NCBI RefSeq assembly: GCF_001693385.1
Contig: NZ_CP016428.1
Span: forward strand, 620,001 to 684,000
Source: Bradyrhizobium icense
GTDB taxonomy: Bacteria; Pseudomonadota; Alphaproteobacteria; Rhizobiales; Xanthobacteraceae
Direction of reading: 5' to 3'
Length of the DNA stretch: 64,000 bases
A program made the translations under genes and the position numbers. Below, one piece after another: positions 41,176 to 61,616 of the stretch. Under the pieces are notes generated by a model that was given only the letters and a program-made list of their open reading frames with translations, did no database searches and was not told the DNA's origin. The number at the start of each line of letters is the position of its first letter. Position 1 is the stretch's first letter.

Positions 41176-41325
41176 GAGACAAATCTATCTGGCCTCAGGA
41201 CATTCTGCAGAAGGGCGATAGCGCCTATACCGGCATGCACCCGCCAGAGCCGCAAGCAGCGCGATGGCCGGAGCATAGCCGAAGTGCTAAAAGGACAGTC
41301 GCTAAAGCACGCAGGAGAACCAATC

Positions 41326-41742
41326 ATGGGATCGATCACGGCGATTGCCAACGCTTTCTTTGCCGCTTGCGAGACTGGAAAGGGCTGGGAAGGCTGTAAG
41401 ACTTACTGTGCTCCAAATGCCACTTTTGCCGCTCAGGCCGAACCGCTTGCCGATATCAAGGCTCTCTCGGAATACGCGGATTGGATGAAGGGGCTAATGA
41501 CTATTATGCCGGACGGCCGCTACGAGGTGAAATCCTTCGCCACCGATACTGAACGAAACAATGTCGCGGCCTATGCTGTTTTTTCGGGTACTCATACTGG
41601 TCCCGGCGGTCCGTGTGAGCCGACCGGTAAGAAGACGACTTCGGACTACGTCTACGTGATGCAATTCACTGGCGACAAGATCAGTCACATGACCAAGATA
41701 TGGAATTCTGGTGTGGCACTAAAGCAGCTGGGATGGATTTGA
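41326..41742 (+). CDS. SnoaL-like (NTF2-fold) protein
   Basis: The 138-residue protein has the NTF2-like pattern ITAIANAFFAACETGKGWEGCKTYCAPNATF and ends with HMTKIWNSGVAL. AGGAG precedes the ATG 41326; the frame is open 14 codons further upstream. Members include polyketide cyclases and ester-cyclase-like proteins. The substrate is unknown. Confidence 0.85.
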   Translation: MGSITAIANAFFAACETGKGWEGCKTYCAPNATFAAQAEPLADIKALSEYADWMKGLMTIMPDGRYEVKSFATDTERNNVAAYAVFSGTHTGPGGPCEPTGKKTTSDYVYVMQFTGDKISHMTKIWNSGVALKQLGWI

Positions 41743-42743: not shown

Positions 42744-45700
42744 ATGCCACGACTGCGCTGTGTGGTGCTGCTGACGCTATTCTGGCTTCTGGGTGCAGCA
42801 TCGACCGCTGCCGCGCAGAACACGCGCGTTGATGCGCCGAAGACCCGCGCTGACTTCGAGAAACTTGTGCTCGAACGGGCGCATCCGGATAGCCTCGCCA
42901 CCGACTTCGCCGGCGCTTTCGGTAACATCTACCAGTATCTGGTACCGGCTCGGTTCCTCGACGGCCGCCTCTACGAGCAGGCCCTGCAGCAAATGGCTGT
43001 GACCGACGGCCTTGGTTGCGGCCCACCAATGGCGCCGCGGGCGCGGCTGGCCTGCATGGCCAATCACGCCGCTACAGCCCTGACGTCGTTGACGCTCTTT
43101 TCCGAAGCTATACTGCTTCGCACGGACGCCGTGAACTTCGCCGAGGGTATGGCTGATGCCGACCCGGCGCCGTTGACCGATTCCCTTCTTGCGCTCGCGG
43201 GCGACGAATGGACTCACGGCTCGATGATGAAGGCGGAGGCCGTTGTGCGCCGGGCTTCTGCGCTGATGGCTGGCCGGCCAGATGCTGTGACGGCCAGACA
43301 GCGCATGCTGCTGGCTGTGCTCCAAGCGCAGCTTGCCGACGCCCGTCTCGATGACGGCGCGGCCGTCGCAGCCCTGTCCGAGGCCGTGAATGCACAACTG
43401 GCCAAGGGGACACATCGGGAACCTGCCGATGGTTACCTGTCCGATCTAGTCATGCAGCACCTGCGCGGGCGTTTCTGTCCGAAGTGCGGTCATCCCGTCG
43501 CTGAACCCGTACAGCGCTGGCTGACGGCGATGCTTCAAGCAGATCTTGGCTCCGATTTCCGTGCCTACGACGAGAAAACGCCCGATCGCATGGGGCTGCT
43601 GCTCAAGATGCTCATTGCGCCGCAAGGCACCGTTCCGACTGCCACACTGCAGAGTTACGCGCGGCGGTATCTGGCCGCACAGCCACCAAGACAAGTTACC
43701 GGCATTCGCAAGTTCTTACCGCCGGGTACCGGCGACGTCGCGACCGCCCAGATGCTGACGCTATCCTATTTTCTCGAAGGAGGATCGCCGATCGTTACCG
43801 ATCAGCCGCGGCTCAGGATCCTGCGCGAAGCGGTGCCGCGGCGGCAGGCGATCTTGATGAAAGAGTTTCTCGAGTACGTCGTAGGCGATCATTTCTCGCA
43901 ATTTGGTGCCGACATCCTCGTCCCCGCCGCATTAGAGGAGGCATCCTGGCACTATGAGCGAGCCGGCCTTCGCAACGCGGCGCGCCTGACGCTGGAATTC
44001 CTGATGGATTGGCAGCGCAAGCGCGACATGTCGGGCACGGGCGAGCAGACCCTCGTCAAGGAAACCACGATCCGGCAGGCACGCGTGTTCGTACTGGCGC
44101 TGGCCCGTCTCGCTGCGTTGCAGCTTGCCGCGGGCGATCGCGCGGCTGCGACGAAGAGCCTCGGTGATGCCAGCGCCATCGCACAGGCAAAGCTTCGCGC
44201 GGAATGGCGACACGGGGGCGAGCGCACCATACTGACGATGCGCGATCTATCAGAAGCGCTGCGGCTGATCGCGCAGACGCGTCATGAGCTGCTGGCGCCC
44301 ACGCGGTTTGCAGAGAACCCTCCTGGCGCGGATGCGCTGTTCCGCGCGATGCAGGCGGCGATCACGGGCGAGACCGGACTGACCCTCGAAGTTGCGCGAC
44401 AGCGGCGCATCCTGAGCACGCCGCGACTTGCCGAGCTACGCCGTGAACACCTGCATGCCACGGCAGAAGCCGCGCGCATCGCCGAGATTGAGCAAAGATA
44501 TGAGCCATTCAACTATGAAGGGGCCATGACACGCGCACGGCGCGAAGCCGAAACCCGCCGCGACGAGCTTGCGGCCGAACTGGACAGGCTGGCGGCGCCG
44601 CAACCGGCGGCCGGGGACATCGAGCCCGTGACGCTTGAGGAGGCGAAGGCTAGCCTCAGGTCTGGGGAGGCGCTCGTCCTGCTGCGCGTCGGCAGCCACA
44701 GTCTCGATGGCTTCCTGCTCGATCACGACGGCAGCACGTCGATCTGGCGCACATCCATTCACAAGGACGAGCTGGAAGCTCTGGTCAAATCACTTCGGGC
44801 GGGCGTCGATATGGCAACGTCCAGGGTGCCGGAGTTCAAAGTTGAGGAAGCGGCGCGACTTCACGATGTGATCTTCGGTTCTGCCAAAGTGCGTCTATCG
44901 AACTATCGCAAGCTCATCGTGCTTGGGGACGGTTCGTTGCAGTCGCTGCCTTATGGGATCCTGCTCACACGCAAGCCTGCTCAGGCTCCGAAAACGGCCG
45001 ACGGGTTCCGTGCGGCCGCGCTACCCTGGCTGGTCCGCACCCACGCGATCGCCCTTGTGCCGTCGGTGCGCAGTCTCGTCGCGCAGCGCTCCAGCGCAGC
45101 TGTAAGTACCGCGCCGCGGCCGTTCCTTGGCGTCGGCAATCCGCAACTGGCTTCGAGCGGCGCCGGTCAGCGCAGCATCGATGTGACCTCCGTATTCGGG
45201 AGCGCCGGGAGCGGTCTTGCTGATGTGGGGGTGCTGCGCACGTTGGCGAGCCTGCCGGAGACCGAGGACGAGTTGCGGCAGATCGCCGATGTCCTGCGGG
45301 CCGGGCCGGAAGACATTGTTGTCGGCGCCAAAGCAAATGAGGCGGCCCTGAAAGCGATGCCGCTGGAGCAATACCGCACGATCGCGTTCGCAACCCACGG
45401 CGCGCTTGCCGGCGAATTGGCAGGCACGAGCGAGCCCGGTCTGGTGCTCACGCCACCTATCCAGGCGACGGTTGAAGATGACGGCTACCTGAGCCTTTCA
45501 GAAATTCTCGGCCTCAGGCTCGACGCCGATCTCGTGATCCTTTCGGCCTGCAACACCGGCACCTCCGACGGCAGACCGCGTGCGGAGAGCCTCTCAGGGC
45601 TGGCACGCGGCTTCTTCAACGCAGGCGCCCGCAGCCTGCTCGTGACGCACTGGACGATTCCGTCGGAGTCGGCGGTCAAGACGACGACCGGCCTCGTGGC

Positions 45701-45848
45701 AGCGCGGGGGCGGGATCAAGCGATGGATTGGGCCGATGCGCTTCGTGAGGCAACGCTCGCCATCATCGACAAGGAAGGGCCGGCAGAGTGGGCGCATCCC
45801 ACCTTCTGGGGCGGCTATGTGGCGATCGGCGTGCTGCCGACGCAATGA
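42744..45848 (+). CDS. Secreted CHAT-domain (caspase-like) protease with helical N-terminal region
   Basis: The 1034-residue protein starts with a signal peptide (MPRLRCVVLLTLFWLLGAASTAAA). About 650 residues of TPR-like helical repeats follow, then a CHAT domain from about residue 690. The catalytic dyad is His885 in AFATHGAL and Cys936 in LSACNTG. THWTIPSESA and FWGGYVAIG near the end are also typical. CHAT proteins cleave partner proteins and are often activated by a partner. This copy should work outside the cytoplasm. The gene ends 13 bases before the convergent VHL-domain gene. The frame extends 24 codons upstream of 42744, but the signal peptide fixes the start. Confidence 0.9.
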   Translation: MPRLRCVVLLTLFWLLGAASTAAAQNTRVDAPKTRADFEKLVLERAHPDSLATDFAGAFGNIYQYLVPARFLDGRLYEQALQQMAVTDGLGCGPPMAPRARLACMANHAATALTSLTLFSEAILLRTDAVNFAEGMADADPAPLTDSLLALAGDEWTHGSMMKAEAVVRRASALMAGRPDAVTARQRMLLAVLQAQLADARLDDGAAVAALSEAVNAQLAKGTHREPADGYLSDLVMQHLRGRFCPKCGHPVAEPVQRWLTAMLQADLGSDFRAYDEKTPDRMGLLLKMLIAPQGTVPTATLQSYARRYLAAQPPRQVTGIRKFLPPGTGDVATAQMLTLSYFLEGGSPIVTDQPRLRILREAVPRRQAILMKEFLEYVVGDHFSQFGADILVPAALEEASWHYERAGLRNAARLTLEFLMDWQRKRDMSGTGEQTLVKETTIRQARVFVLALARLAALQLAAGDRAAATKSLGDASAIAQAKLRAEWRHGGERTILTMRDLSEALRLIAQTRHELLAPTRFAENPPGADALFRAMQAAITGETGLTLEVARQRRILSTPRLAELRREHLHATAEAARIAEIEQRYEPFNYEGAMTRARREAETRRDELAAELDRLAAPQPAAGDIEPVTLEEAKASLRSGEALVLLRVGSHSLDGFLLDHDGSTSIWRTSIHKDELEALVKSLRAGVDMATSRVPEFKVEEAARLHDVIFGSAKVRLSNYRKLIVLGDGSLQSLPYGILLTRKPAQAPKTADGFRAAALPWLVRTHAIALVPSVRSLVAQRSSAAVSTAPRPFLGVGNPQLASSGAGQRSIDVTSVFGSAGSGLADVGVLRTLASLPETEDELRQIADVLRAGPEDIVVGAKANEAALKAMPLEQYRTIAFATHGALAGELAGTSEPGLVLTPPIQATVEDDGYLSLSEILGLRLDADLVILSACNTGTSDGRPRAESLSGLARGFFNAGARSLLVTHWTIPSESAVKTTTGLVAARGRDQAMDWADALREATLAIIDKEGPAEWAHPTFWGGYVAIGVLPTQ

Positions 45849-45861
45849 CCGCCTCACGTCC

Positions 45862-47118
45862 CTACCGAAACGCACCTCCGTTCCACCGCATCGCGCGCGG
45901 TGATCCGCCGTGCCCACGCCAGCGAACGGTCGGGATTCGGCCGGCGTCGACCGTAACCATCATGCCGAGCAGATCGCCTACTGCGAGCTTAAGGAGCGGG
46001 CCCTCGCGCACATAGATCATCACCGAGCAGACCTGCATTCCGCACGCGCTGCTCCGCCCGCCGCCTGTGCACGTTATTCCCTCATGGCTGATGATCAGAT
46101 CGGCTTTTCCGTCGCCGGTCAGGTCCCGTTCGATCACCGCCGCCGGATCGATCCTGCCGCCTCTCCTCTCGCACGCATCGCTAATCTGCTCCCTGATGAG
46201 ATAGTCCGCCGCCTTGGAACGGGCGGCGGGCTGGGACGCGCCGGCCTCGGTGCCGTCTCCTTGCCTTAAGTCGACGAACCGCAAGCCGGCAGCGGAGATG
46301 AGGAGCCTGAACGTCGCCTTGGCTGTCGGGCAGCAACGCGGCTCACCCGGACCGAGCACGGTGCCCGTATAGCTGATGGCGCCGCTCTCGAATCGCACAT
46401 CGCGCGGTTCGGTCCCGATAGTTTCGGTCTGTCCGAACGGTGCGAAAGCGCCTTCGGGTCCGGCCTTAAGCACGATGGCAATCTGATACACGGCATTGCC
46501 GCCGACCGCCGACTCATGGGTCACGAAAGCGACCGCGTAATCTGCCGGATCGTCTGGCATTTTTCCGTAGAAGAGTGTCGCTCCGCCGACGAAGTCGGTT
46601 AGGGGACATGTCTTCGCACCCTTGCCAGACATGTCGCAGTCGATGCGGCTGGTCTCGATGTACCGCTCGACCGCGGGCGCTGCCGGCCCCTTGATATTTG
46701 ACTTGTAATTCTGCGCGGCAGCGCTCGCCGCGTTACCGCCAACGGTTTTCGATTGCGGCGCCAGAGGAGCAGTCTCTCCCTTTCCGTCGATCGACACCCG
46801 TCGGGGCTCGCGCGTTGGCATATAGATTGCGAGGCAATCCTCGTTTTCATTTGTCAGAACCCAAGGATGGGTGAGATAGGTCTGCTGATGGTAACTTTGA
46901 TGCGGCCGCACTGCCGCATAGAAGTGCCGTCTGCCCTCGTAGTTGATCCAGTAAATTCTTAAAGTGATCGGCATCAAGTTCGTGAAAGTAATGGACGTGG
47001 AAACCGCTCCCTCGGTGGACCGCAGTCCGGTTTCTTCCGGGCAATGAGCACCTGCGGCGAGAGCGAGGCTTGGGCAGACTGCTAGTATCAAAGTAAACAT
47101 CAACCGCGTGCGGTTCAT
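45862..47118 (-). CDS. Exported protein with von Hippel-Lindau beta domain and C-terminal FG-GAP-like segment
   Basis: The 418-residue protein has a signal peptide (MNRTRLMFTLILAVCPSLALAA) and then a VHL-like beta domain (about residues 38-100: ITFTNLMPITLRIYWINYEG...TYLTHPWVLTN). Residues that align with the hydroxyproline pocket of human pVHL are Trp57, Tyr67, Thr80 (Ser111 in human), His84 and Trp86. Several Cys residues could form disulfides. The C-terminal part has DLTGDGKADLIISHE, an integrin-like calcium loop. Start 47118 has GGAG upstream; the frame is open 26 codons further. It is convergent with the CHAT protease gene. Confidence 0.8.
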   Translation of the reverse strand: MNRTRLMFTLILAVCPSLALAAGAHCPEETGLRSTEGAVSTSITFTNLMPITLRIYWINYEGRRHFYAAVRPHQSYHQQTYLTHPWVLTNENEDCLAIYMPTREPRRVSIDGKGETAPLAPQSKTVGGNAASAAAQNYKSNIKGPAAPAVERYIETSRIDCDMSGKGAKTCPLTDFVGGATLFYGKMPDDPADYAVAFVTHESAVGGNAVYQIAIVLKAGPEGAFAPFGQTETIGTEPRDVRFESGAISYTGTVLGPGEPRCCPTAKATFRLLISAAGLRFVDLRQGDGTEAGASQPAARSKAADYLIREQISDACERRGGRIDPAAVIERDLTGDGKADLIISHEGITCTGGGRSSACGMQVCSVMIYVREGPLLKLAVGDLLGMMVTVDAGRIPTVRWRGHGGSPRAMRWNGGAFR

Positions 47119-47758: not shown

Positions 47759-49549
47759 CTACGCCGCACGGCGATAATGGGAAGATCGGCGAAGGAAAGC
47801 GAGGCCGTCGATTTTCTGCATGCTCGACTTCACCCGCGGATAGGTTGCCTCAATAGTTCGGAAAAGAGGTAAACCGGGGAGCCCGACATCCTGTTTGTTG
47901 CCATATGGACCCATAACGGGAACAGCAACGACCGGTTCGCTAGGCAATATGCGGCTCAACAGCGCCCCAAATCCATCTCGTGCTTCGTAAGCTGTAACTT
48001 GGCGGTTTACGAATTGCAGTTCGGAAAAGATCATTGTCGCTATTTCCCGCCTCTCATTGTCGAGTGCATGTCGGAAGTACATCCCGGCATTCTTCACCAA
48101 CTCCGAGAAGGTAAGGATGCATTTCAACATTTCCGGAACGCTTTCTGCGTAAATCGCAATTTCTGCACTTATCCCAGCCAGCTTCGCCTCCAATCGATCC
48201 TTCTCAGTTTCGATGGCGTTGGCATTCATCGCACCGGTCCGCAGCAGTGTAATTTTGTTTTGGGCAATATAGTCAAGGTCCGCAATGACGGAGCGCTGCT
48301 TGCCTTGGAGATCGCTGAGTGTCCGGTTCCTTTCGTCGGAAAGTTTTTTCAACTCCGTCTTTGAGCCGCTCTCGATTTCCGCGAGCTCCTGATCAGAGAG
48401 ATATATTTTGTCCATGATTATTTGTATCGCGGCCGAAATTTCAGGTTCGCTCAGGTTTGGGTCGCGATTGGCACATCCTTCTTTACAGCGGCTTCTATAG
48501 TAGATGATGCCCTTTTGAATATATGGCGAATACAGCCGCCCGCATCCGCACCGCACAAGTCCTCTATACGTATAGAATGGTTCGTGCACATAATGCACGG
48601 ACACACGCTTCTTCCTTAGCATCGCCTGCACTTGGTGGAACGTTGCCGTGTCGATGAGGGCTTGATGGGCGGCACTGTCGACATAGGCATCACCAACCTT
48701 CACCTTCCCGATGTAAAAGGGATTCGGAAGCATATACTCAATTGTCTTATGGTCGACGGGACGAGCAATCTTCGGTAGCGATCCAATATCGATGTTGTCT
48801 GCTATCTCCGCACCAGTTCGTTTTCGGCGAGTCGGCTTTTTTCTAAGACCCTGCTCTTGCGCCCACTTCGCGAGCTGGCGAATGCTCCAATCGCCTGTAG
48901 CATACAGCTCAAAAATTCTTCTCACGGTCGGAGCGCGCTCGGGATCAATCGGCTTACTATCCGACCCTCTATCCAAATAGCCGATAGGGGCAGCGTACAT
49001 GCAGCGCCGCTCGGCGCGCAACTTTCTCTGCGCGTTCCGAACCTTCTCGCTTATACTCCGAGAGAAGTGTGTCGCAAACACACCATCGATATCTCTGTGC
49101 AATTCGCCGGAGCTTGTGCTGTCGTAGGTTGCCTCGGCAAAGCGGATGTCAGAGCCAATGCGCGTCAGCTTCTTAAGTATCAGATCGTCGTGCGGATTTC
49201 GGCTGGCTCTGTCCCAACATAGGAATATGACACCCTTCACCTTTCCGGCCTTTAGAACTTCGGCCAGCTTCAAGAATTTCGGGCGTAGCACCCGATATTG
49301 AACGGAGCCGTCGGGGAGAATGTCGAACTCGTTGTCCTCCTTAAATCCGGAATGGCTCTCATCGATTACCCCGCCACTGCAAAATCCAGGAATGGTGAGG
49401 TCCTTTGCAACCGGTAGATTCTGCCGCTCGGCGAATTCAAGGTTCCGCTGCCGTTGATACACGAGCGAGTTGCGCTGGTTCTCCGCATCGTCAGTGCTCT
49501 TGCGGTTATAGATGAGGTAAAGGTGTTTGAAGGTATCATTGATCTCCAT
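47759..49549 (-). CDS. Large serine recombinase (resolvase/integrase type)
   Basis: The protein has about 596 residues from ATG 49549. The catalytic serine is Ser18 in YLIYNRKSTDD; the resolvase domain continues with FLCWDRASRNPHDD and ISEKVRNAQRKL. A recombinase domain (RQLAKWAQEQGLRKKP), a zinc ribbon (CGCGRLYSP...RCKEGC) and a coiled coil follow. Other ATGs up to 49666 are open, but none has a clear ribosome binding site. Such enzymes integrate phages and islands, so it marks a nested element. I did not find its attachment sites. Confidence 0.88.
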   Translation of the reverse strand: MEINDTFKHLYLIYNRKSTDDAENQRNSLVYQRQRNLEFAERQNLPVAKDLTIPGFCSGGVIDESHSGFKEDNEFDILPDGSVQYRVLRPKFLKLAEVLKAGKVKGVIFLCWDRASRNPHDDLILKKLTRIGSDIRFAEATYDSTSSGELHRDIDGVFATHFSRSISEKVRNAQRKLRAERRCMYAAPIGYLDRGSDSKPIDPERAPTVRRIFELYATGDWSIRQLAKWAQEQGLRKKPTRRKRTGAEIADNIDIGSLPKIARPVDHKTIEYMLPNPFYIGKVKVGDAYVDSAAHQALIDTATFHQVQAMLRKKRVSVHYVHEPFYTYRGLVRCGCGRLYSPYIQKGIIYYRSRCKEGCANRDPNLSEPEISAAIQIIMDKIYLSDQELAEIESGSKTELKKLSDERNRTLSDLQGKQRSVIADLDYIAQNKITLLRTGAMNANAIETEKDRLEAKLAGISAEIAIYAESVPEMLKCILTFSELVKNAGMYFRHALDNERREIATMIFSELQFVNRQVTAYEARDGFGALLSRILPSEPVVAVPVMGPYGNKQDVGLPGLPLFRTIEATYPRVKSSMQKIDGLAFLRRSSHYRRAA

Positions 49550-49901
49550 AGGCAGTTGGATCAATTCTAGCATGTGTCGGAGCTTCGGCGTGCCCATCGT
49601 CGATGACGTAGCCTTCCGCAAGCAAGCGCGCGTGCACCCGCCGAAAGAGCTCAAGCAGCGCAACAAGTCTCTCGGTTTCGCTGCCAGATAGACAACGCCT
49701 AGATGAATCAGTCATGCCACAAGCTATCGCGAGCAGCGGATGTAAGGCAGAGGTGATACTTGGCCGTTATGGCAATAGGGCCGTAATTCGCCGCGCGGGG
49801 CATTTGTCGTAGGCCCAAACGCATGCTACGCAACGCAAGCCTGCGGTCTAAGTAGCGCATTCAATGCGTCGCCGACTCCAAGGTTGCTTGGGCCGTCCAA
49901 A
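49550..49901. other. Gap between the serine recombinase start and the nuclease-like gene
   Basis: About 350 bases with no supported gene. The recombinase promoter and perhaps one attachment site should be here. The region has moderate GC and a run (49700-49870) without clear hairpins. Confidence 0.4.
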
Positions 49902-50768
49902 CTAAATTCGGCTTTGATATGCGGCGCGCATCAACTCCAAAAGCAAGCCTCGATTTTTTAATAGATCATCGGCAACGACGGACAATCGGTAGGATTTGTA
50001 CGTCTCGTCATAGTCGAGCACCTCAATTCCCGACTGCTCTATCTTTGCATCTACTTCTTCAGTACGCGGCAGTCGAATTTCGACCCTGATGACTCTCTTC
50101 TTTGGCCTGAAAATCACAAAATTGAAGGGTTGGCCTGCTTTCGACAGCCCAATGTAGAACTTGTTGTATTTCAATTCGATCGACGGATCGATTTCTTGAA
50201 CGATCGCCAACAACTGGTCAGCAAGTTGCACCGTCGCCTTTGTCCCCTGCTTTTCCCAATAAGCTCTATCGGTCGGAGTCGCTTCCGCATCCTCGTCCTC
50301 GTCCACAAAGCCTCTGGACATCTCGTCCATCACTTTCGTGAAGACCAGGGTCGTGTGCTCACCAACCTTTAGCGCCTGCATCTGCAGCGCGATCAGCGGA
50401 ATGACCCCGTTGAAGAGCGACACAACATTTAAGAACCGGCTGGTAATATCCTCCGCAACGAGCACCGCGCAGTGCTCATACTGAGGGTAGCGCTTTCGCT
50501 CTATGTCCCAATACTCAATAGAACGGACGATGTGTGCTTCGTCCGTCGAACCCAGTTGGACTTCGACCTCATAACGGCGCTTCGTCTCTGGGTGCTGAAG
50601 AAGTAAATCCAGCCTACCGGCTCGGGGCTGTATCCGTTCCTTGTCGCGCAATACGAGAGCCCCCAGCCCGAGAATTTTTGGGTCGGACGCGATCAGGCCC
50701 TGCACCCACCTTTCGTTAAGCTCGGGATGGAGTTTGAGAGAAACGCGCTCAGCTTTCATAAAGCTCAT
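49902..50768 (-). CDS. PD-(D/E)xK nuclease-like protein
   Basis: The 288-residue protein has the arrangement GRLDLLLQHPETKRRYEVEVQLG, where Asp and the ExE/Q strand resemble a PD-(D/E)xK nuclease core (about residues 50-85). DEAHIVRSIEYWDIERKRYPQYEH follows. The second half (residues 165-288) is a separate domain that resembles DUF5655-like modules. ATG 50768 is used; a GTG five codons upstream is possible. Its position beside a type I restriction operon suggests a defence or modification-related role, but no substrate is known. Confidence 0.55.
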   Translation of the reverse strand: MSFMKAERVSLKLHPELNERWVQGLIASDPKILGLGALVLRDKERIQPRAGRLDLLLQHPETKRRYEVEVQLGSTDEAHIVRSIEYWDIERKRYPQYEHCAVLVAEDITSRFLNVVSLFNGVIPLIALQMQALKVGEHTTLVFTKVMDEMSRGFVDEDEDAEATPTDRAYWEKQGTKATVQLADQLLAIVQEIDPSIELKYNKFYIGLSKAGQPFNFVIFRPKKRVIRVEIRLPRTEEVDAKIEQSGIEVLDYDETYKSYRLSVVADDLLKNRGLLLELMRAAYQSRI

Positions 50769-51143
50769 ATCGTTGCGCCCCACGGCAAATCAGCCCGCTA
50801 TGTGAGCGTCCGGTGGTTAAACAAGGCTGAACGAAGGCCAGGGTAAGACGTATCGTCTCCCTTTTGCCTAACGAGAAGAAAATCCCGGTTCGATTCGTGC
50901 TGTTTGCCGTAAGCGGCAGCAAGGACGTTTGCCGTTTTTCCGCATGCATAAGCCCGATTGAGGATATCCTCAGGGGCTCGTCATCGCGAACCACTAGTTT
51001 TACCTGATGTGCAATTCCCGTTATGGAAGTCCTTTCCTGGCACGAAGCCGTGCCTGCCTTTTCAACCGCCAAGGCGCGATCCATGAGTCGCGAACTTGCA
51101 CCGGTTCGTCCAGTAACCCAGAGAGGAGTGTCGGGAGCTCCTG
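50769..51143. other. Gap between the nuclease-like gene and hsdR
   Basis: These 375 bases include an open frame on the minus strand (50749-51084), which I reject. No terminator with a T-run was found. The promoter of the nuclease-like gene should be at the left end. Confidence 0.45.
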
Positions 51144-53483
51144 TTACCGAGCCACATCGGCGTATAGGTATCTCTGAAAACCGATGAACGTATCCCGGAT
51201 CTTTGGTATGCCGCCAAGTTCGCGAGCGGCGTCACTAACAGCCCGGTACTTCAACTCAAGAAGCGGCGTCAGCTTGGATTGATCCAATTCTCCTACACCC
51301 TCCTTTATGTACTCGGCTAAGACGAAATCAAGGAACTCACGCAGCTTATGATCGCCATACTGTGCAAAGATAGTGCCTTTTCGAGTCTGCACGCGCTCCT
51401 CACGAGTGATCGGAGCAAGCGCGAACGCTATGTAGGCGAGTACGTCATATAGGTCGCTCTTCTCGGCGTCGATTAAGCGTCGAATCTCCGCAAGCTGCGC
51501 GTCTCCGAAGCCCTTCTCTGCTAACCCATCTAGCAGTGCTTTCCTCGTGCCAGGCTCGCTCCAGAGGGCTCTCAACTCATCCTCGTTTTTGAAGAGCGCG
51601 GGAAGCTCACCGAATAGACGCTCGATAAATTGCGCCGCAGACATGGGTTTGCCGTCAGCGCTCCAGAAACTGGTAGCCATCATGTGCTGGATCGTGCGTT
51701 CCTTGCCGTCAGCGAGTTTGATCTTCAGCTTCTGCTGACGGTTCGGCTCCTCGTCGCCGCCATCGTCGTCACGTGGCGCGGGCTCTTCTTCATCGCCTCT
51801 CGGTGGACGCGGTCGGGTTTCCTGCGGTTCTACCGGTTCTCCATCCCACTCCGGATCGTTGAAATGCTGGTAAGCCTTCACGAAGTCGTAAATCGTGAAA
51901 TAGTCCTTCCCTTCATACAGACGCGTCCCGCGGCCGATGATCTGCTTGAACTCGATCATCGAATTGACTGGTCGCATCAGAACGATATTGCGTATGTTGC
52001 GGGCATCGACGCCGGTTGAAAGCTTTTGAGACGTCGTCAGAATGGTCGGGATCGTCTTGTCGTTGTCTTGGAAATCCCGTAGGTGCTGATCGCCAAGCGC
52101 CCCATCTTCGGCAGTGACCCGCACGCAATAATTCGGGTCCTTGCTCTTCTTCATCTGGTTGATGAGATCACGCACCATCAGGGCATGCGCCTGTGTCGCG
52201 CAAAAGACGAGCGTCTTTTGACTTTGATCAATCTGATCCAGGAATAGCTTCACGCGATACTTTTCGCGCTCGGGTATGACGATCACTTTGTTGAAGTCGC
52301 TCTCAACATACCGCTTGCCCAGGACCACCTCACCCTCGACGATTGCATCGTCCGGGGTGTATGTATAGTCGTCCATCGTTGTGGCGATCTGCTTGACTTT
52401 AAACGGGGTCAAGAATCCGTCATTGATCCCTTCACGCAGCGAATAGGTATAGATCGGTTCTCCGAAGTACTTGTACGTATCGGCATTCGCTTTGCGCTTA
52501 GGCGTCGCGGTCAGCCCGAGCTGCACAGCAGGCTTGAAATACGTAAGAATTTCTCTCCACGTGCTTTCGTCGTTCGCACCGCCACGATGGCACTCATCGA
52601 TGATGATGAAGTCGAAGAAGTCCGGCGGATAGTCGCCAAAGTTAGGGGCCGGATTCCCATCAGAATCCGTGCCTGACATGAACGTTTGAAAAATCGTGAA
52701 GAAAACACTGCCGTTCTTTGGAACTCGCCCGTGCTTCCGAATAATCTCCGGATCGATACGGACTAGCGCCTTGTCTTCGAACGCAGCGAACGAGTTGAAA
52801 TCGTTGAAGGCCTGATTGGCCAGCCCATTTCGATCAGCCAGGAACAGAATACGCGGGCGCCGTGTCGGTTCGCCCGTTAGATTCCAACGGGCTTCAAACA
52901 ATTTCCACGCGATCTGGAATGCAATCGACGTCTTCCCCGTCCCGGTAGCCAGCGTCAAGAGCATCCGCTGCGATCCGGTGGCGATTCGCTCCAAGACCCG
53001 CTCTACAGCGATTTGCTGGTAATACCGGATTTCCCAGCTTCCGCCCTTGTCCGGGTACGGCACCCCGGCGAACCGGTCTCGCCAACCGTTTTGCTGCTCG
53101 TACGTCCGATTCCACAGCTCATCCGGACTTGGGAACGCAGGCACCTCGCCTTCGCCTCCCTCCCGCATATCAATTGCATAGATAGCCTTGCCGTTTGACG
53201 AGTACGCAAACCGGATCGACAGCTTGCCTGCATAATCCTTTGCTTGGCCGACTCCCTCGGTCAACTCCTCGTCCCACGCCTTTGCTTCTACGACGGCGAG
53301 CCTATGACTGCGGTACTCCAAGACATAATCGGCCTTCAGCGCCTTGCCACGCTTGCCATGCCCCTCTATTCGGCCCGGCGTGATGAAGAACTCTCGCCGG
53401 ATGCGGCTTCCTGCAATCACGCCCCAACCCGCAGTCTTCAACGCTGGATCAATATGTTCAGCTCTAGTTTCGGCTTCGTTCAT
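51144..53483 (-). CDS. hsdR: Type I restriction endonuclease, HsdR subunit
   Basis: The 779-residue subunit has an N-terminal nuclease region (ADYVLEYRSHRLAVVEAKAW, PD-ExK), then a helicase with Walker A LATGTGKTSIAF, DECH in IIIDECHRGG, LTATPKR and a motif VI IGRGTRLYEGKD. An acidic, Pro/Arg-rich insert (EPNRQQKLKIKLADG...) precedes the C-terminal assembly domain. It cuts DNA after ATP-driven translocation. It is the last gene of the operon, 9 bases after hsdS. Confidence 0.95.
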   Translation of the reverse strand: MNEAETRAEHIDPALKTAGWGVIAGSRIRREFFITPGRIEGHGKRGKALKADYVLEYRSHRLAVVEAKAWDEELTEGVGQAKDYAGKLSIRFAYSSNGKAIYAIDMREGGEGEVPAFPSPDELWNRTYEQQNGWRDRFAGVPYPDKGGSWEIRYYQQIAVERVLERIATGSQRMLLTLATGTGKTSIAFQIAWKLFEARWNLTGEPTRRPRILFLADRNGLANQAFNDFNSFAAFEDKALVRIDPEIIRKHGRVPKNGSVFFTIFQTFMSGTDSDGNPAPNFGDYPPDFFDFIIIDECHRGGANDESTWREILTYFKPAVQLGLTATPKRKANADTYKYFGEPIYTYSLREGINDGFLTPFKVKQIATTMDDYTYTPDDAIVEGEVVLGKRYVESDFNKVIVIPEREKYRVKLFLDQIDQSQKTLVFCATQAHALMVRDLINQMKKSKDPNYCVRVTAEDGALGDQHLRDFQDNDKTIPTILTTSQKLSTGVDARNIRNIVLMRPVNSMIEFKQIIGRGTRLYEGKDYFTIYDFVKAYQHFNDPEWDGEPVEPQETRPRPPRGDEEEPAPRDDDGGDEEPNRQQKLKIKLADGKERTIQHMMATSFWSADGKPMSAAQFIERLFGELPALFKNEDELRALWSEPGTRKALLDGLAEKGFGDAQLAEIRRLIDAEKSDLYDVLAYIAFALAPITREERVQTRKGTIFAQYGDHKLREFLDFVLAEYIKEGVGELDQSKLTPLLELKYRAVSDAARELGGIPKIRDTFIGFQRYLYADVAR

Positions 53484-53492
53484 AAGATTGTT

Positions 53493-54659
53493 CTACAGGT
53501 TTCCAGCGAACGCTTGGTGCAGCAATGACTTCTTCAGCGCCTCCAGAGCGGCCAGCTTTTGCTCGTAAATGTCTTCGAGATGTTGGGTCTCTTCGCTGAG
53601 TGCGTCCAATTTCGCAACGATTAGCTTCTGCTCACTCACTGAAGGGAATGGAAATCGCTCGTGCTCAAACGTACCCATATTGATGTTGGCCTGGGCACTT
53701 CCCTTCCCCAAGGCCTGGAGACGCGCTTTGAATGCCTGCAAAACGTATTCCACATAACCGACTTCCGCCTCTCTCGGATTTGGTACGACACCGATTACAC
53801 TGTCAGGGAAACACGCATCGAAACTGAGTATCGCTGTCTCAGCGATGTTAGCAGCAATCGTTATGCAAATTGTTCCCTTTGGCCATAGCTTGCTTTGCGC
53901 AAGGCCAGCCTCGCTGTAGGTTTGGGTATACTCGGTGATGTAATGTTCGGCATTTCGAATATCGCCGGTTTGAATAAATGGGTATTTGCCGCCATAAAGA
54001 TGTGGTGCATTTCGCGGGCGGTGCTTTGATTTACCGCGGCCGAAGGTTGTCGCGACCTCCTCCAACGTCTTCTCTTTCCATCCGTCGCCACGCTGAGTGA
54101 AAATGGATTGAAGCTGGCTATTGAAGATAGCCCGGGCATTTTGAAGGTTCTTCTCAGCGTTAGCTGCGGCAGTAGCAAGCCCTGCAAATGCCTCATCTAG
54201 TGAGCCGATTATCCGCTTCTGCTCATCCAGCGGCGGCATGACGAGTTCGAAGTTCGCAAGGGTCGAACCGGACACATTCGGAAACGTTGCGCCTGTACCC
54301 TTGCCATGAATTTCGTCTCGCCTCGAACTGACGAAGTAGTTCACCCACGGCTGATATTCGTGCGCCCGGATCGCGGCAACACCTCGCCCGACGCAAGCAT
54401 CAAATCCCGCAATGTTCATTCTCCCCGTGGTCGATCCCCGAACACACAAGATCAGGTCGCCCTTCTTACAAAGCTTCGTTGGTTGCGTGGTGAACTTCGA
54501 CCGAATCGTCTCACCGAAAGATTCATCGCTGAACTCGACCGGACCATTTATAAGCGGCACTCCTGCCCCTGTTGTGTTGTAACTATCACCATCGGGGCTC
54601 TGACCCATGATGATCTCACAGACGTCCCCAAGGCGTTTAATTGGCCATCCTTTCGTCAT
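53493..54659 (-). CDS. hsdS: Type I restriction specificity subunit HsdS
   Basis: The 388-residue protein has two target-recognition domains in tandem (about residues 1-150 and 200-350). Each is followed by a conserved helix (PPLDEQKRIIGSLDEAFAGL and PSVSEQKLIVAKLDALSEE), as in all HsdS proteins. It sets the DNA sequence recognised by the methylase and nuclease. Its start overlaps the hsdM stop by 4 bases. Confidence 0.95.
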   Translation of the reverse strand: MTKGWPIKRLGDVCEIIMGQSPDGDSYNTTGAGVPLINGPVEFSDESFGETIRSKFTTQPTKLCKKGDLILCVRGSTTGRMNIAGFDACVGRGVAAIRAHEYQPWVNYFVSSRRDEIHGKGTGATFPNVSGSTLANFELVMPPLDEQKRIIGSLDEAFAGLATAAANAEKNLQNARAIFNSQLQSIFTQRGDGWKEKTLEEVATTFGRGKSKHRPRNAPHLYGGKYPFIQTGDIRNAEHYITEYTQTYSEAGLAQSKLWPKGTICITIAANIAETAILSFDACFPDSVIGVVPNPREAEVGYVEYVLQAFKARLQALGKGSAQANINMGTFEHERFPFPSVSEQKLIVAKLDALSEETQHLEDIYEQKLAALEALKKSLLHQAFAGNL

Positions 54660-56140
54660 AGCAGCGCCTTGACGCTCTCAAGCACCTCCGCGCTCTCGGC
54701 GTCCAGCGCGGCGATTTCTTCCAGTATTTCCGTCGGGCTCCGGTGCGTCATTTCCTCGCCGCCATTCGGGTTCTTCACTGAGAGATCAAAGGTAGTCTGG
54801 TCAATTATCCTAGCGTCGACGCTCCAGCTCTTGGGTGAGTCGGTAAAGGCTGTTTGCAGCTCAACAAATTCGGCGAGATCCGCGTCGTTGAGCGGGTTGG
54901 TCTTTCCGAGATTTCGGCCGGGGTCGAGCCGGTAAAACCAGACCTTGCGGGTGGGCGCGCCTTTCTCAAAGAAGAGCACCACAGTCTTCACGCCAGCGCC
55001 CTGGAACGTGCCGCCGGGGCAGTCGAGCACGGTGTGCAGGTTGCAGCTTTCCAGAAGGAGCTTGCGCAGGCTGACGGAGGCGTTGTCGGTATTGCTGAGG
55101 AAGGTGTTCTTGATAACGATGCCGCCCCGTCCCCCGGCTTTTAACATCTTGATGAAGTGCTGGAGAAAGAGGAACGCGGTTTCACCGGTACGGATAGGAA
55201 AGTTCTGCTGGACTTCCTTGCGCTCTTTCCCGCCGAACGGGGGATTGGCTAGGACGACGTCGTAACGATCTTTATCTTGAACGTCGGCAAGGTTTTCCGA
55301 AAGCGTATTCGTGTGAATGATATTCGGTGCCTCGATCCCGTGCAGGATCATGTTCATGATGGCGATAACGTAGGCGAGCGACTTCTTTTCTTTGCCGTAA
55401 AAGGTTTTCGTTTGCAGGGTGTTCAGTTGGCTGGTGCTCAGCTTCCCCTTAATCAGATAGTCGTGTGCTTCACACAAAAAGCCTGCCGAACCAACCGCAC
55501 CGTCATAGATACGCTCTCCGATCCTTGGCTTTACGACTTGGATAATGGCGCGAATGAGGGGCCGGGGAGTGTAATACTCGCCGCCGTTGCGGCCAGCATT
55601 CCCCATCCTTTTGATCTTCTCTTCGTAAAGATGGGATAGCTCGTGTTTTTCTTGCTGTGATTGAAAGTGAAGTTCATCAACCAGTTCGAGCGCGTCTCGT
55701 AAGCTGTAACCGCTCTGGAACTTATTTTTTATCTCTCCAAAGATTTCCCCGATCTTATATTCGATCGTATCCGGGCCTTCAGCGCGCTGTTTGAAGCCGT
55801 GGAGGTACGGGAAAAGCTTGCCGTTGACGTATTCTATTAGATCGTCGCCCGTTAGCGCCTTGTCATGATCAAGAGATGCATCAGCCTTCTTGGGCGCAGC
55901 CCAAACGGACCACTGATGCTCCTTATCAATGATGAACTTGTACGGCTTTCCTTCAAGCTCGGCCTTGAGCGCACGTTCCTGCTCAAGATCATCGAGATAC
56001 TTGAGAAACAGCATCCATGAGGACTGTTCTGTGTAGTCCAGCTCGGTTGTGCAACCCGCCTCCTTCCAGAGCACATCATCGAGATTCTTGAATGTCTGCT
56101 CGAAGCGAGAACCGCCCCACGAGCGCGTGATTTCCAGCAT
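54656..56140 (-). CDS. hsdM: Type I DNA methyltransferase subunit HsdM
   Basis: The 494-residue N6-adenine methylase has the N-terminal helical region (FEQTFKNLDDVLWKEAG), the SAM-binding region with YDGAVGSAGFL, and the catalytic motif VLANPPFGG. ATG 56140 has GGGGGGAGA at a good distance; the frame opens 10 codons earlier at 56170 without a ribosome binding site. It is the methylase of the operon whose first gene is the RloC-like ATPase. Confidence 0.95.
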   Translation of the reverse strand: MLEITRSWGGSRFEQTFKNLDDVLWKEAGCTTELDYTEQSSWMLFLKYLDDLEQERALKAELEGKPYKFIIDKEHQWSVWAAPKKADASLDHDKALTGDDLIEYVNGKLFPYLHGFKQRAEGPDTIEYKIGEIFGEIKNKFQSGYSLRDALELVDELHFQSQQEKHELSHLYEEKIKRMGNAGRNGGEYYTPRPLIRAIIQVVKPRIGERIYDGAVGSAGFLCEAHDYLIKGKLSTSQLNTLQTKTFYGKEKKSLAYVIAIMNMILHGIEAPNIIHTNTLSENLADVQDKDRYDVVLANPPFGGKERKEVQQNFPIRTGETAFLFLQHFIKMLKAGGRGGIVIKNTFLSNTDNASVSLRKLLLESCNLHTVLDCPGGTFQGAGVKTVVLFFEKGAPTRKVWFYRLDPGRNLGKTNPLNDADLAEFVELQTAFTDSPKSWSVDARIIDQTTFDLSVKNPNGGEEMTHRSPTEILEEIAALDAESAEVLESVKALL

Positions 56141-56234
56141 CCGCTTCTCCCCCCGACCAACCTGAGTCATAATGATTCAGATTAGCATACGATAGTTATT
56201 TGTTCGTCCAGTGTGCAACTTTTGCCGGACTCCG

Positions 56235-58895
56235 TTACCATCCCAGCTTCTGCGATACCTTTGCCTTCTTGCGCGTCGCTCGCGCGTCCGTAGCCGTCCT
56301 GCGCGCTATCCTTAGGGCCGCTTCGAGTACGTCGAACTCCTTTCGAAGAGCCTTAAGATCGTCGAGATCTGGCGGGTCCTCTCGCCTTTGATCGCTGCGA
56401 TTGTGAGCGAGGATAACCTCAGACAGTCGGCCATGTAGTTCAACAATTTGCAACGCAAGTGACTGATCAAAAATCACCTCCTCAAGGTTCATGACCTTGA
56501 TGTGGTCGTCATACCTTTGAATCGTTCCCGCGAAAAGAATTTCCTCAATCATGGCTTCAGTCGCACTCCGCAGATAGTCGAAGGCTGCTCCGAGCGCCCG
56601 TTCTTGCTCCTTAGCGCCGAGTGAGGAGAAATCTCTCACGGCTTCCTGAGCGTCGTTCTTTAGTTTCGTTAATGAGGCGAGGCGCGGGCTCGTATCGTCT
56701 TCGACTTTCCCAGGGACGCCATCGATCTTGCGCATCCAGTGTGCGATAGCCGGAATGGAATTGCGCTCCGCGTGCTTCACGAGCTGGCTCATAAAAACGA
56801 TGTCGTGCGTGAACACAACGACTTGACGTTCACCTGCTTCTACAGCTAACCGCCTTGCTATTTTATCCTTCCGTTCATGGTCGAGCGAAGTGACGGGATC
56901 GTCGAAGATGATTCCGCAGTTGTTCTTATCGAGTTGGATCTCGGTCAGAAAGTCAGCCAACGAGCAGGCATTCTGCTCACCCTCGCTGAGGATTTCACTG
57001 GGGTTGTATTCTTCCGCAAAATCGAGCCGAAATTCCTTTACGGTGTTGCCTTGCTCTCCGCTTGTGCGCATGACGAGATTGAAGTTGCAATCTAGCCGAC
57101 CAAGCTCTTGATTGAAAATGCCCTTATAGTTCCGAGCCACTCCAACCAAGAAGGACTCGGTGCGCTTCTTGGTAGTGGCCATCTTGATTCCTGCGAAACC
57201 AGCCTTGTTTGCTTTGGCCGACCACTGCAAGTAGGATAGGTATTCAAGAGCAGCCCCTTTTACCGACGCCACCTTCTTCTTGTCTTTAAGCCCATTAAGT
57301 TGGGCCGTCAGCCGTTCAATCTCTGCCGTAGGATCGACTAAGTGTTCTCCTTCGGCCGCCTTGCACTCAATGCGAAGCTCGATCTTCGACAAGTCGACCT
57401 TGGGAACGCCCTTCATGTCGACCTTCCGTAGTGTGTCGATCTTTGCTTCCCAATCGATGGTAACGGCTGCAAGCGCTTGGAACTGAACCTTCAGCCGCGC
57501 AAGGTAGGCCGCATCCTCTTCGATGAGGACCTTTACGCCCGCGTCCGTATCAAGGAACTTTGGATGCAGCGCCTTCGATGATCGAAGATCCTGCAGTAGG
57601 ACCGTTTGGCGACGCTCCAGAAGGGCTAGTTCACTCTCTGCTTTGCTCTCCAGGAACTGCCAGTACTTCACAAAAAGGGCTTGCGCTTCAAGCGTCAGTT
57701 TCTGATGGCACAAAGGACAATGTGCGAGGTCCTTGCCATTGTCGGCCGCTACTTCAGCGGCACGAAGCTCCTTTGCAGCGACGATCAGAGCCCTCCATTC
57801 CGGGCTGCCAATTGTCTGGAGGAGCCCGTCGTCGAAACTGCTTACACTTAGGCTTTCTACAAGTCTTCTCTTCTCAGTGATATCAGTTAGGAGCTGATTG
57901 ACTTCTCGCTCCTTGGCGATGGTGAAACGGTCGACCACAGCCTGCAGTGTCGCCTTGAGCGCTGAAAGATTCTGGCGGTCGTTCAAAAGTTGTTTCTTCT
58001 TTTTGGGGACGTCGAGTTTTCGCTTTTCGTCAATTTGCTTCTGCAAATCTGCCATCGTGCGCACGTCGAGCTCGGGATCGAAGCTCGCATGCGCAAGTAA
58101 ATCGGCTTCGTTTGTCGCGGCCGACATACCTTTGCAAAAGATCGCCGTCGTTGACGTGTCGTTGTCGAAGAACGTCCAACTGAAAGGATTGTCCTTCCTT
58201 TTCTCATGACGCTCGTTCGTAAGCCGCTCCTCCAGCTTCGCAATGGTATCCGCGACCTTGTCAAAGATTTTTATTTGCGCCGGAGTAAAGTTGACATGAT
58301 TAGATTGATCTAAGTGGATAAGCACGCTCTCGGCATCGAAAACGGCGAAGCGCTTGAGTTCGTCAATATCGTCGCCGAGCGAGTACTTGATTTCCGCCGG
58401 TGACGCGTCTTCGGCCTGAATTACAAAAGTCGCCCCAGCTTGCCCGGCCTCATCCAGGCGCACGTTCGGGAGAACGTCGCGCTCACCGCGAGAGAAGCAT
58501 GCGTTGCAGAGCAGGCGGCCAATGCCGCTCTTTCCGCTTCCATTAGCGCCGTAGATTAGGGTGAGGTTTGGGCCGACCTTGATGGAGCATTCTTGCGAAA
58601 TTGCGTTTACATCCACGAAATCTCTTATCTCGATCAACTTGATTTTATCGGCACCAATAGAGGGCTCACCGATTGAGCCGATTTCATTCTTGAAAGAAAT
58701 CGATGGCCGTTGGTCAGAATCCGAAAGGGGGGCAATAATCCCGAGATGTTCTGAAAGGTAGGCGTAGCACTGGTCAACATCTTCCTTGCTCAAAACCTCC
58801 TTCTCGAGATTGAGCTTCCAAACGTACTGTTCCCAAAAGGGCTTTGCGTTCAGCCATGCTTCCAAACTCTCAATAGATGCGTTGCTCTCAATCAT
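56235..58895 (-). CDS. Zinc-hook ATPase, RloC-like
   Basis: The protein has about 886 residues. Walker A LIYGANGSGKSGIG lies near residue 120. A coiled coil follows with a zinc-hook motif CPLC at residues 393-396 in its middle. The second ATPase half has the signature ILSEGEQNACSL and Walker B IIFDDPVTSLDHE (AAA_13 type). The last 120 residues contain R776-x3-E780 (LRSATE) followed by His798, His821 and His831, which recall the R-E-H triad of anticodon nucleases. Known RloC and PrrC proteins stand with type I restriction systems. The gene lies 95 bases before hsdM. ATG 58895 is preferred to 58919 because GGGGCGAAAG lies upstream. Confidence 0.7.
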   Translation of the reverse strand: MIESNASIESLEAWLNAKPFWEQYVWKLNLEKEVLSKEDVDQCYAYLSEHLGIIAPLSDSDQRPSISFKNEIGSIGEPSIGADKIKLIEIRDFVDVNAISQECSIKVGPNLTLIYGANGSGKSGIGRLLCNACFSRGERDVLPNVRLDEAGQAGATFVIQAEDASPAEIKYSLGDDIDELKRFAVFDAESVLIHLDQSNHVNFTPAQIKIFDKVADTIAKLEERLTNERHEKRKDNPFSWTFFDNDTSTTAIFCKGMSAATNEADLLAHASFDPELDVRTMADLQKQIDEKRKLDVPKKKKQLLNDRQNLSALKATLQAVVDRFTIAKEREVNQLLTDITEKRRLVESLSVSSFDDGLLQTIGSPEWRALIVAAKELRAAEVAADNGKDLAHCPLCHQKLTLEAQALFVKYWQFLESKAESELALLERRQTVLLQDLRSSKALHPKFLDTDAGVKVLIEEDAAYLARLKVQFQALAAVTIDWEAKIDTLRKVDMKGVPKVDLSKIELRIECKAAEGEHLVDPTAEIERLTAQLNGLKDKKKVASVKGAALEYLSYLQWSAKANKAGFAGIKMATTKKRTESFLVGVARNYKGIFNQELGRLDCNFNLVMRTSGEQGNTVKEFRLDFAEEYNPSEILSEGEQNACSLADFLTEIQLDKNNCGIIFDDPVTSLDHERKDKIARRLAVEAGERQVVVFTHDIVFMSQLVKHAERNSIPAIAHWMRKIDGVPGKVEDDTSPRLASLTKLKNDAQEAVRDFSSLGAKEQERALGAAFDYLRSATEAMIEEILFAGTIQRYDDHIKVMNLEEVIFDQSLALQIVELHGRLSEVILAHNRSDQRREDPPDLDDLKALRKEFDVLEAALRIARRTATDARATRKKAKVSQKLGW

Positions 58896-59242
58896 TAAAC
58901 TTTCGCCCCGAATCCCCATACAACCGAAAGTATAGACGTTTCGACACGGTGCCGCTACTCAAGGTTTTCGCGGGGGAGCGTCAAGGGTAGCCCCGCAAAG
59001 AAGGTGTGCACGTCTGATTCCCTTTTCTTTGGTCGGCCAAATGAATTTCCAGAGTGCTCCTCTCAAGAAAAACCCTCGCTTTGAAGCGAGGGTGTGGACA
59101 AAAAGAACGTCCGAGGTACATCCGCTCTGTTCGGGCGCATGACAGCGTCACGCTGTCCGTCAGGCCTTCCGAAGCTCCCCACAACAGTGCTTCTCCTGCT
59201 GAAGCATCGATCTGTCGCGCCTAGGCGGGAGGCGGTCTCTTC
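58896..59242. other. Gap with terminator between the RloC-like and DUF3768 genes
   Basis: These 347 bases hold a strong minus-strand terminator (59072-59093), which closes the DUF3768 operon. The promoter of the RloC-like gene must lie between it and 58895. No gene is supported. Confidence 0.6.
59072..59093 (-). terminator. Rho-independent terminator, minus strand
   Basis: A perfect 10-base stem (ACCCTCGCTT/AAGCGAGGGT) with a 2-base loop spacer is followed by five T on the minus strand. It lies 150 bases past the DUF3768 gene. Confidence 0.85.
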
Positions 59243-59587
59243 TTAGTATTCTTCGGCAAGCATGATCGTGAGGACACGCGTAGTCTTTTCGGGATCGGCT
59301 GGGTCTTCAGACCCGAACTCACAGAGCACGTCGTAGTAGTCGATCTTCCAAAAGAACTTCGCACCCGCGACTTCAAAGCTACCAAAGTCGTGCTCATCAT
59401 GCGGATCATTGTCCGCATTGAAATCCGCAAAGCTCTGAACCTGGATCATCGCGCGAGCTTTCACGTCTAATGGCAGACTTGCCACGCCTGAGGTTATGAC
59501 AACTTTGCCGCCCAGAAAGGTCGCGCGAAAGAAGTCGTTGAGTACTCGAATGCGACGCAACGTGACGGCGGTGGCGATATTATTCAT
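59243..59587 (-). CDS. DUF3768 family protein
   Basis: The 114-residue protein starts MNNIATAVTLRRIRVLNDFF and has GKVVITSGVASLPLDVKAR and FFWKIDYYDVLCEFGSEDP, the DUF3768 pattern. It is widespread on rhizobial plasmids and islands, and its function is unknown. It overlaps the zinc-ribbon gene by 8 bases. The frame runs upstream to 59794, but that part reads as another gene in a different frame. Confidence 0.85.
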   Translation of the reverse strand: MNNIATAVTLRRIRVLNDFFRATFLGGKVVITSGVASLPLDVKARAMIQVQSFADFNADNDPHDEHDFGSFEVAGAKFFWKIDYYDVLCEFGSEDPADPEKTTRVLTIMLAEEY

Positions 59588-59732
59588 CGTCGCCCTCCGA
59601 GGCATCCTCGCTCTTGTATGGCGACATGTGACGCGCACCGCAGTGCGGACAATCGTCGTCGCACTGTGCGGACCAAACGTCCGTCCACTCGCGACCGCAT
59701 TCTGCGCAATGGTAGAAGTTTCGGACTTGCAT
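59580..59732 (-). CDS. 50-residue zinc-ribbon peptide
   Basis: The peptide has two Cys pairs (YHCAECGREW...CDDDCPHCGARH) arranged as a treble-clef/zinc-ribbon. It is encoded between the two other small genes and overlaps the next gene by 8 bases. It is likely a real gene because the three form a compact run. Function unknown. Confidence 0.7.
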   Translation of the reverse strand: MQVRNFYHCAECGREWTDVWSAQCDDDCPHCGARHMSPYKSEDASEGDDE

Positions 59733-59742
59733 GGCCGGTCTC

Positions 59743-59985
59743 TTAGATCAGACCGGCCAGCACAAATACGGATACAACGGTGTTGCCCCCACACGCCTCG
59801 CAGACCCCCTGGTCTTGGTCTGGCTCTACCTTGGCGGTGTGGTTACATCCCTCAGTCACGCAGATGGCGGGACACACAGTGTCCGCGATCGCTATCAGCA
59901 GCAGATCGTCAAGACTCTCGACGCCCTGAAGGTCGCAAAGCTTCATTAGCTTTGCCGCCTTGTGGGAAAGAGCAATGGTGGACAT
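59743..59985 (-). CDS. Small conserved island protein, 80 residues
   Basis: The protein reads MSTIALSHKAAKLMKLCDLQ...SLDDLLLIAIADTVCP and has a Cys-rich second half (CVTEGCNHTAK...CEACGG). AAGGAGAAG is at perfect distance from the ATG. The frame runs 91 codons further upstream, but that part is not a protein. It is the first gene of the small operon and occurs in many rhizobial mobile elements. Function unknown. Confidence 0.8.
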   Translation of the reverse strand: MSTIALSHKAAKLMKLCDLQGVESLDDLLLIAIADTVCPAICVTEGCNHTAKVEPDQDQGVCEACGGNTVVSVFVLAGLI

Positions 59986-60147
59986 GTTCTTCTCCTTATC
60001 ACCGTCAGCCCGAACCATTCGGGTGCCGGATAGCAAGGCGGAGCTGCTTGCGGACTTACCAGCGCAGCTGCTCCGCCTCGCTACCGACCCCGAACGGGAG
60101 CCGCCGAAAGAACATGTCCGAGCGGAATACTGCCTGTAAGCGGTCAG

Positions 60148-60409
60148 TGAGGGCAGACGTGAGGTTAAGCCAAGTTGGCAAATACTATTGGGTGCGCGGA
60201 GGCAAGCTAGCAGGGTCAAGTATGACGGCGCTGAATGGCTTTGACGGCGTCCCGTCAATCATAAGCTTGAGATAGATGCGATAATTCGGCAGCTGCAAAA
60301 GATCAATCTCCTCGAACCTCTCGTGGAATTCGCGGACAAGATATGGGGCATCTTCGACGCCGACTTGAAATGAGAAGATCGAACCGGCATTGCCCAGGAC
60401 CGCATGGCG
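60148..60409 (-). pseudogene. Truncated 3' copy of the TraG-like ATPase gene
   Basis: These 262 bases match 62691-62952, the last 74 codons plus 37 downstream bases of the intact ATPase gene, at roughly 85 % by eye, with no gaps and the same orientation. The stop codon is at 60185-60187. There is no 5' part. The two copies bracket three exported-protein genes. Confidence 0.85.
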
Positions 60410-60484
60410 ATGATTGGCGCTCTTGAAATAACGCGCGTGCTGGGCGGCTTGGATGTGGCCGCTTAGGCGGCCAAACCGAGTGTT

Positions 60485-61096: not shown

Positions 61097-61152
61097 AGCC
61101 ATTTCTCCGCGAACGGCGTTCGATGAAAGTCAGCCTGTGGTCGGAATGCCAA

Positions 61153-61560: not shown

Positions 61561-61616
61561 TAGCTACATTATATCACGTCTCATTTGGCAACCGGCGCGA
61601 TCCAAAGATTAGGCCG

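Follow-up and report, generated by a model that had tools for sequence, protein, structure and literature searches.

A convergent gene pair

The window, that is, the whole stretch of 64,000 nucleotides analysed here from a genome of 8,322,773 bases, carries on its minus strand (45862..47118) a gene for a protein of 418 amino acids. Translation, Pfam matches and models divide it into a von Hippel-Lindau (VHL) beta domain, a middle domain and a C-terminal FG-GAP-like module. The protein begins with a signal-peptide-like stretch, residues 1-21 (47056..47118, minus strand), recognized in the sequence and by a heuristic, with a putative cleavage site between ...SLALA and AGAHC. The original prediction had called the protein exported; its signal-peptide-like start was confirmed by inspection and script, and export itself is what such a start would suggest. 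The Pfam match to the VHL beta domain (PF01847, E 6.4e-9) covers residues 32-91 (46846..47025, minus strand). The middle domain, about residues 137-285 (46264..46710, minus strand), has no Pfam match at E 0.1; it precedes the VHL domain in P0003 and is found without one in P0004-P0007, and we take its CCPT motif to be reminiscent of LppP/LprE lipoproteins. The C-terminal module, residues 300-418 (45865..46221, minus strand), does contain a DLTGDGKADL loop, but the FG-GAP repeat profile (PF01839) scores 13.5 bits against a cut-off of 22.1, so that an FG-GAP-like calcium loop, as first suggested, falls below threshold. This module was found in the window genome only, among 8 genomes searched, and two modules like it end each of the CHAT proteins P0024 and P0026. 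In P0016 a transposase (PF00872) is joined to part of the same module, probably an insertion into a gene carrying it. A fold search with the full-length model gave no match at E 0.001.

On the plus strand a convergent neighbour (42762..45848) encodes a CHAT-domain protein (PF12770, E 1.6e-43) with a signal-peptide-like start, as judged by eye. We placed the start codon at 42762 after P0029, the ORF tool having given 42672. The domain has the His of an ATHG motif (45396..45398, plus strand) and the Cys of a SACN motif (45549..45551, plus strand), which presumably are the catalytic residues of a CHAT protease, and no solved chain matches the protein in sequence at E 0.01. The stop codons of the CHAT and VHL genes are separated by 13 bases and, as the genes are convergent, they do not form an operon. 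Assuming one gene of each kind among about 7,900 genes, and for the window genome alone, the probability of such adjacency by chance is about 3 in 10,000. The link to the protease is a new result that the original prediction had missed.

Upstream of the CHAT gene lies a gene for a protein of the SnoaL-like polyketide cyclase family (PF07366, E 3.5e-13; 41284-41742, plus strand). Both genes of the pair sit at the edge of a probable mobile island of lower G+C (about 0.53-0.55) at 47759-63918. Within it, type I restriction-modification genes occupy 51144-56170, an AAA/SMC-like protein is encoded at 56235-58919 and a TrwB-like coupling protein at 62728-63918, and there is also a gene for a serine recombinase.

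The VHL fold and its pocket

The VHL beta domain of the window protein is a true homologue of the substrate-binding domain of pVHL. PF01847 scores 36.1 bits against a cut-off of 21, and the modelled domain (pLDDT 94) can be laid over human pVHL with an rmsd of 1.2-1.7 Å for 73-76 residues; profile and model alike favour the VHL-like beta sandwich that had been claimed from the letters. The equivalence proposed for the hydroxyproline pocket also holds, as all five positions match in the alignment and in the superposed model, with Thr in place of Ser. On the minus strand these are W57 (Trp88 of pVHL; 46948..46950), Y67 (Tyr98; 46918..46920), T80 (Ser111; 46879..46881), H84 (His115; 46867..46869) and W86 (Trp117, of both pocket and core; 46861..46863). 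Among 59 aligned bacterial domains the first is Trp and the fourth His in all 59, the second is Tyr in 50 and Phe in 3, the third Thr in 57 and Ser in 2, and the fifth Trp in 58 and Phe in 1.

Thus the predicted fold and the five pocket positions are common to the bacterial domain and the eukaryotic pVHL beta domain (PDB 1LM8, 1LQB, 4AWJ); between human pVHL and a bacterial domain, identity reaches at best 35% over 60 positions. Unlike pVHL, the bacterial protein has a signal-peptide-like start and a pair of cysteines; the bacterial domains mostly have Gln where pVHL has Ile109, and Asn67, Arg69 and Arg107, at which pVHL touches the HIF peptide or its mimics, are not kept. At E up to 1 the window protein matches only VHL and, weakly, FG-GAP, and 49 relatives match 18 families at E 0.001, none of them an alpha-domain family. 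As no alpha domain with its Elongin C-binding box was found, the window protein is no pVHL-like adaptor of an E3 ligase.

The alignment comprised the window domain, 46 others from a contig scan (of its 49 loci, L056, L064 and L070 were excluded as truncated) and 12 that HMM searches recovered from whole genomes. Since the peptide patterns used in the contig scan contain pocket residues, its rows are biased, and the HMM-found rows were also assessed on their own. Over all 59 domains, four of the five pocket positions fall within the first five of 75 columns when ranked by entropy, position 98 being 13th; the pocket has a mean entropy of 0.27 bits versus 2.1 over 67 columns, and only 2 of 100,000 random five-column sets were equally conserved. 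In the 12 HMM-found domains the corresponding values are 0.53 versus 1.78, and 69 of 100,000. All five residues, with Tyr or Phe at position 98, occur in 53 of the 59 rows and in 9 of the 12 HMM-found ones. In metazoans the pVHL pocket is nearly invariant (PMC6650433). In contrast, the positions around the pocket that contact the HIF peptide or mimics, as listed in PMC9528729, have a mean entropy of 2.11 bits versus 2.1 for the whole domain and are on average no more conserved. As the pocket is conserved and its surroundings are not, it is the core pocket that has been kept and not the HIF-specific surface.

The evidence for pocket conservation that is least affected by the pattern bias is locus L055 of Rhodobacteraceae bacterium DSL-40 (L055:6030-11696), where one open frame of 1889 residues holds ten tandem VHL units, only one of which the scan had reported. 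Nine of the ten keep W, Y/F, S/T, H and W, so that constraint on the pocket, seen across the 59 domains, recurs within a single protein and backs the pocket originally proposed. The script detected no signal peptide in this frame, which may therefore start late.

Distribution, predicted export and the CHAT link

Bacterial members of PF01847 are already in public annotation, and one of them, P0022, is a named Bradyrhizobium jicamae CHAT protein with both domains. An exported bacterial VHL-domain protein has been published as well: EMK97_00595 of Litorilituus sediminis (PMC9002001) combines, like the window protein, bacterial origin, a signal peptide and a VHL beta domain. In the portion of that paper available to us, tumour suppression is argued for EMK97_00595, without analysis of a bacterial pocket or a link to a protease. 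Likewise, literature searches among open-licence papers turned up no report of a bacterial VHL hydroxyproline pocket or of a CHAT-VHL pair.

Counting the window genome each time, PF01847 occurs in 18 of the 391 family genomes, in 7 of 398 drawn from the phylum and in 8 of 242 of the genus. The contig scan yielded 49 loci with a VHL-type domain, of which 41 encode proteins that match PF01847 at E 0.001 and 8 do not; their records name Pseudomonadota groups, Acinetobacter, Cyanobacteria, Chloroflexi, Gemmatimonadetes, Verrucomicrobia and Acidobacteria, and further Sericytochromatia, Obscuribacterales, Streptomyces and Myxococcales. The domain occurs in 3 plasmid records. A phage origin was considered and rejected, as no phage matched and 0 of 62 pattern matches in viral contigs were confirmed. 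Architectures are mixed, from VHL alone to combinations with SH3_3 (3/49), WD40-type propellers, Big_1 (1/49) and MG2 (1/49), and L046 has a weak LprI match below its cut-off. Two VHL-domain genes lie side by side in two genomes (L003/L020 in G073 and L023/L028 in G701). Among the families listed (the best 25 of 134 and the best 25 of 61, from 176/177 flanking ORFs called crudely by length) no neighbour is widely shared; the commonest are response-regulator domains (6/88, second batch) and pyridine-nucleotide oxidoreductases (6/176).

For 35 of the 49 relatives a simple script recognized a signal peptide or a lipobox, several of the other 14 being truncated or started in the wrong frame. By script, too, the cysteines flanking the domain are both present in 34 of the 49 loci, both absent in 7 and single in 8. 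Three of the single cases have truncated starts (L056, L064, L070), two are script misreads (L037, L065), L068 was inspected only a few residues beyond the match, and L076 and L077 are genuine exceptions. In the window protein the pair consists of C26 (47041..47043, minus strand) and C95 (46834..46836, minus strand), the latter position being Cys in 48 of the 55 rows that have a residue there. As the pair was scored in 34 of 49 loci a disulphide is likely, and to judge from the sequence a C26-C95 bond probably braces the VHL domain outside the cytoplasm.

Close homologues of the window CHAT protein (E 1e-100) occur in 2 of the 242 genus genomes, the window's own and G777, and in both a VHL domain is linked, adjoining in one and fused in the other. 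The B. jicamae protein (P0022 / L052) belongs to the CHAT subfamily of the window neighbour, with which it shares 64-65% identity, and has CHAT and VHL in Pfam; its VHL domain is fused and on another tree branch, whereas the window's is a separate gene. A C-terminal VHL domain follows CHAT in P0023 as well, and ten close homologues end directly after CHAT. In two myxobacterial loci (L076:3136-8264 and L077:3148-8264) a CHAT gene and a VHL lipoprotein gene overlap at the TGA stop of the former and the ATG of the latter (TGATG). The CHAT protein of these two loci carries a C-terminal extension that by eye resembles a membrane beta barrel.

With a profile built from P0022-P0055, hence partly from the L052 protein itself, and VHL flanks of up to 8 kb, CHAT was found in 3 of 49 VHL loci (L052, fused; L076; L077) and not in the other 46. 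None of the 20 regions fetched around HMM-found VHL genes contained it, one of these regions, L129, appearing to be the same contig as L045. As CHAT is absent from 46/49 and 20/20 regions, the pairing of CHAT with VHL is not a general one. Of the 391 family genomes, 42 others have a more distant CHAT protein, with 33-40% identity to that of the window; two of these (G354, G373) also have VHL, on a different contig from the CHAT gene. In a tree of the VHL domain, computed from 85 columns and with 36 of 64 inner branches open, the three CHAT-linked VHL groups sit apart: the domains fused to CHAT cluster with Beijerinckiaceae (97/88), the two myxobacterial domains have a branch to themselves (100/99) and the window domain falls with P0003 and P0018-P0020 (82/71, not strong).

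Proteins with a C14 caspase domain and a signal-peptide-like start are encoded near VHL genes at L069:5153-6625 (minus strand) and L119:14030-15556 (plus strand), too few to count. The VHL proteins of these two loci carry an EAFEAAKALG..AWNAF repeat, which by eye resembles a stretch in the L119 caspase.

Proposed function and ligand

The predicted fold, the pocket residues with their conservation, the fusions and the adjacency were computed directly. We propose that the window protein is an extracytoplasmic recognition protein whose VHL pocket binds a ligand and which serves the adjoining CHAT protease, a proposal for which we see even chances. The protein would be exported and would hold its ligand in the aromatic/His/Ser-Thr pocket, the same that pVHL uses for hydroxyproline; it may then act as the targeting or substrate-recognition part of the CHAT protease, supplied separately. 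The same part would be fused to CHAT in B. jicamae and in one other sequence, and in two myxobacteria it would be the lipoprotein whose gene overlaps the end of the CHAT gene. More broadly, we infer that the VHL domain provides recognition for an extracytoplasmic protease or an envelope process. TPR-CHAT / Csx29 (Craspase) pairs a CHAT caspase-like protease with a target-recognising partner, like the pair proposed here, but is cytosolic and RNA-guided.

Somewhat less probable, and still a serious competitor, is that the domain is a generic extracytoplasmic module for adhesion or carbohydrate binding, with no special tie to CHAT and a pocket that binds a sugar or a non-hydroxylated peptide. The very mixed architectures, including the ten copies in L055, the broad taxonomic spread, the lack of a recurrent neighbour among the families listed, the absence of CHAT from most VHL regions and the CHAT relatives P0030-P0032, which have PAN domains and no VHL, all agree with such a module. 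Yet two CHAT fusions and close linkage in three distinct VHL groups are hard to obtain by chance, and it is at the conserved polar positions that pVHL binds the hydroxyproline hydroxyl (PMC9528729).

Conservation of the pocket could also reflect the beta sandwich alone, the bacterial domain being a ligand-free structural spacer. F76 and W117 belong to the core aromatic tetrahedron of pVHL (PMC3688787), and F76, N78 and S65 (pVHL numbering) are likewise highly conserved in the bacterial domains. Against this, unit 5 of L055 shows V, L, V, R and I in place of the five pocket residues and still stands in the array, so that the pocket may have been lost as a whole, or the unit may be decaying; moreover, an invariant His and a Ser/Thr lining the pocket would be atypical of mere core packing. 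We consider a spacer quite unlikely. Least probable is binding to hydroxyproline in proteins of plant or algal walls (extensins, arabinogalactan proteins) for plant attachment, the target first suggested: the pVHL-type pocket residues, the signal-peptide-like start and a genus that inhabits soil and the surroundings of roots would suit it, but the same pocket occurs in bacterial groups without an obvious plant tie, the domain is present in only 8 of 242 genus genomes, and wall hydroxyproline is largely O-glycosylated, which would be expected to block the pocket. A wall extensin has no specific support.

Returning to the recognition protein that we favour, hydroxyproline in a protein is, by analogy with pVHL, a plausible leading candidate for the ligand, and a fair guess because the hydroxyl-binding Ser/Thr111 and His115 are among the most conserved positions; an aromatic pocket would be suited to a sugar, too, or to some other feature of a peptide. 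A hydroxyproline made by the bacterium itself was considered through co-occurrence with PF13640, a family of 2OG-Fe(II) oxygenases that is not specific for prolyl hydroxylases. Of the 24 genomes with VHL 18 were used, the other six being 70-89% complete. The family was over the cut-off in 10 of these 18 and in 13 of 21 genomes without VHL, and as there is no enrichment with VHL, a self-made ligand has no support from that comparison. In its fullest form the proposal would make the protein an extracytoplasmic pVHL-like adaptor that captures proteins with modified, perhaps hydroxylated, proline and hands them to the CHAT protease, which we regard as unlikely.

Few recognition sites have been studied as much as the pVHL pocket, through oxygen sensing and PROTACs, and we know of no ligand for its bacterial relatives. 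Its conservation over several bacterial phyla raises a concrete question, whether these domains bind hydroxyproline or what else they bind, and the CHAT link provides a candidate partner for the VHL protein. If the adaptor does operate as outlined, VHL-type recognition would be combined with proteolysis in bacteria as well as in the oxygen-sensing pathway of animals.
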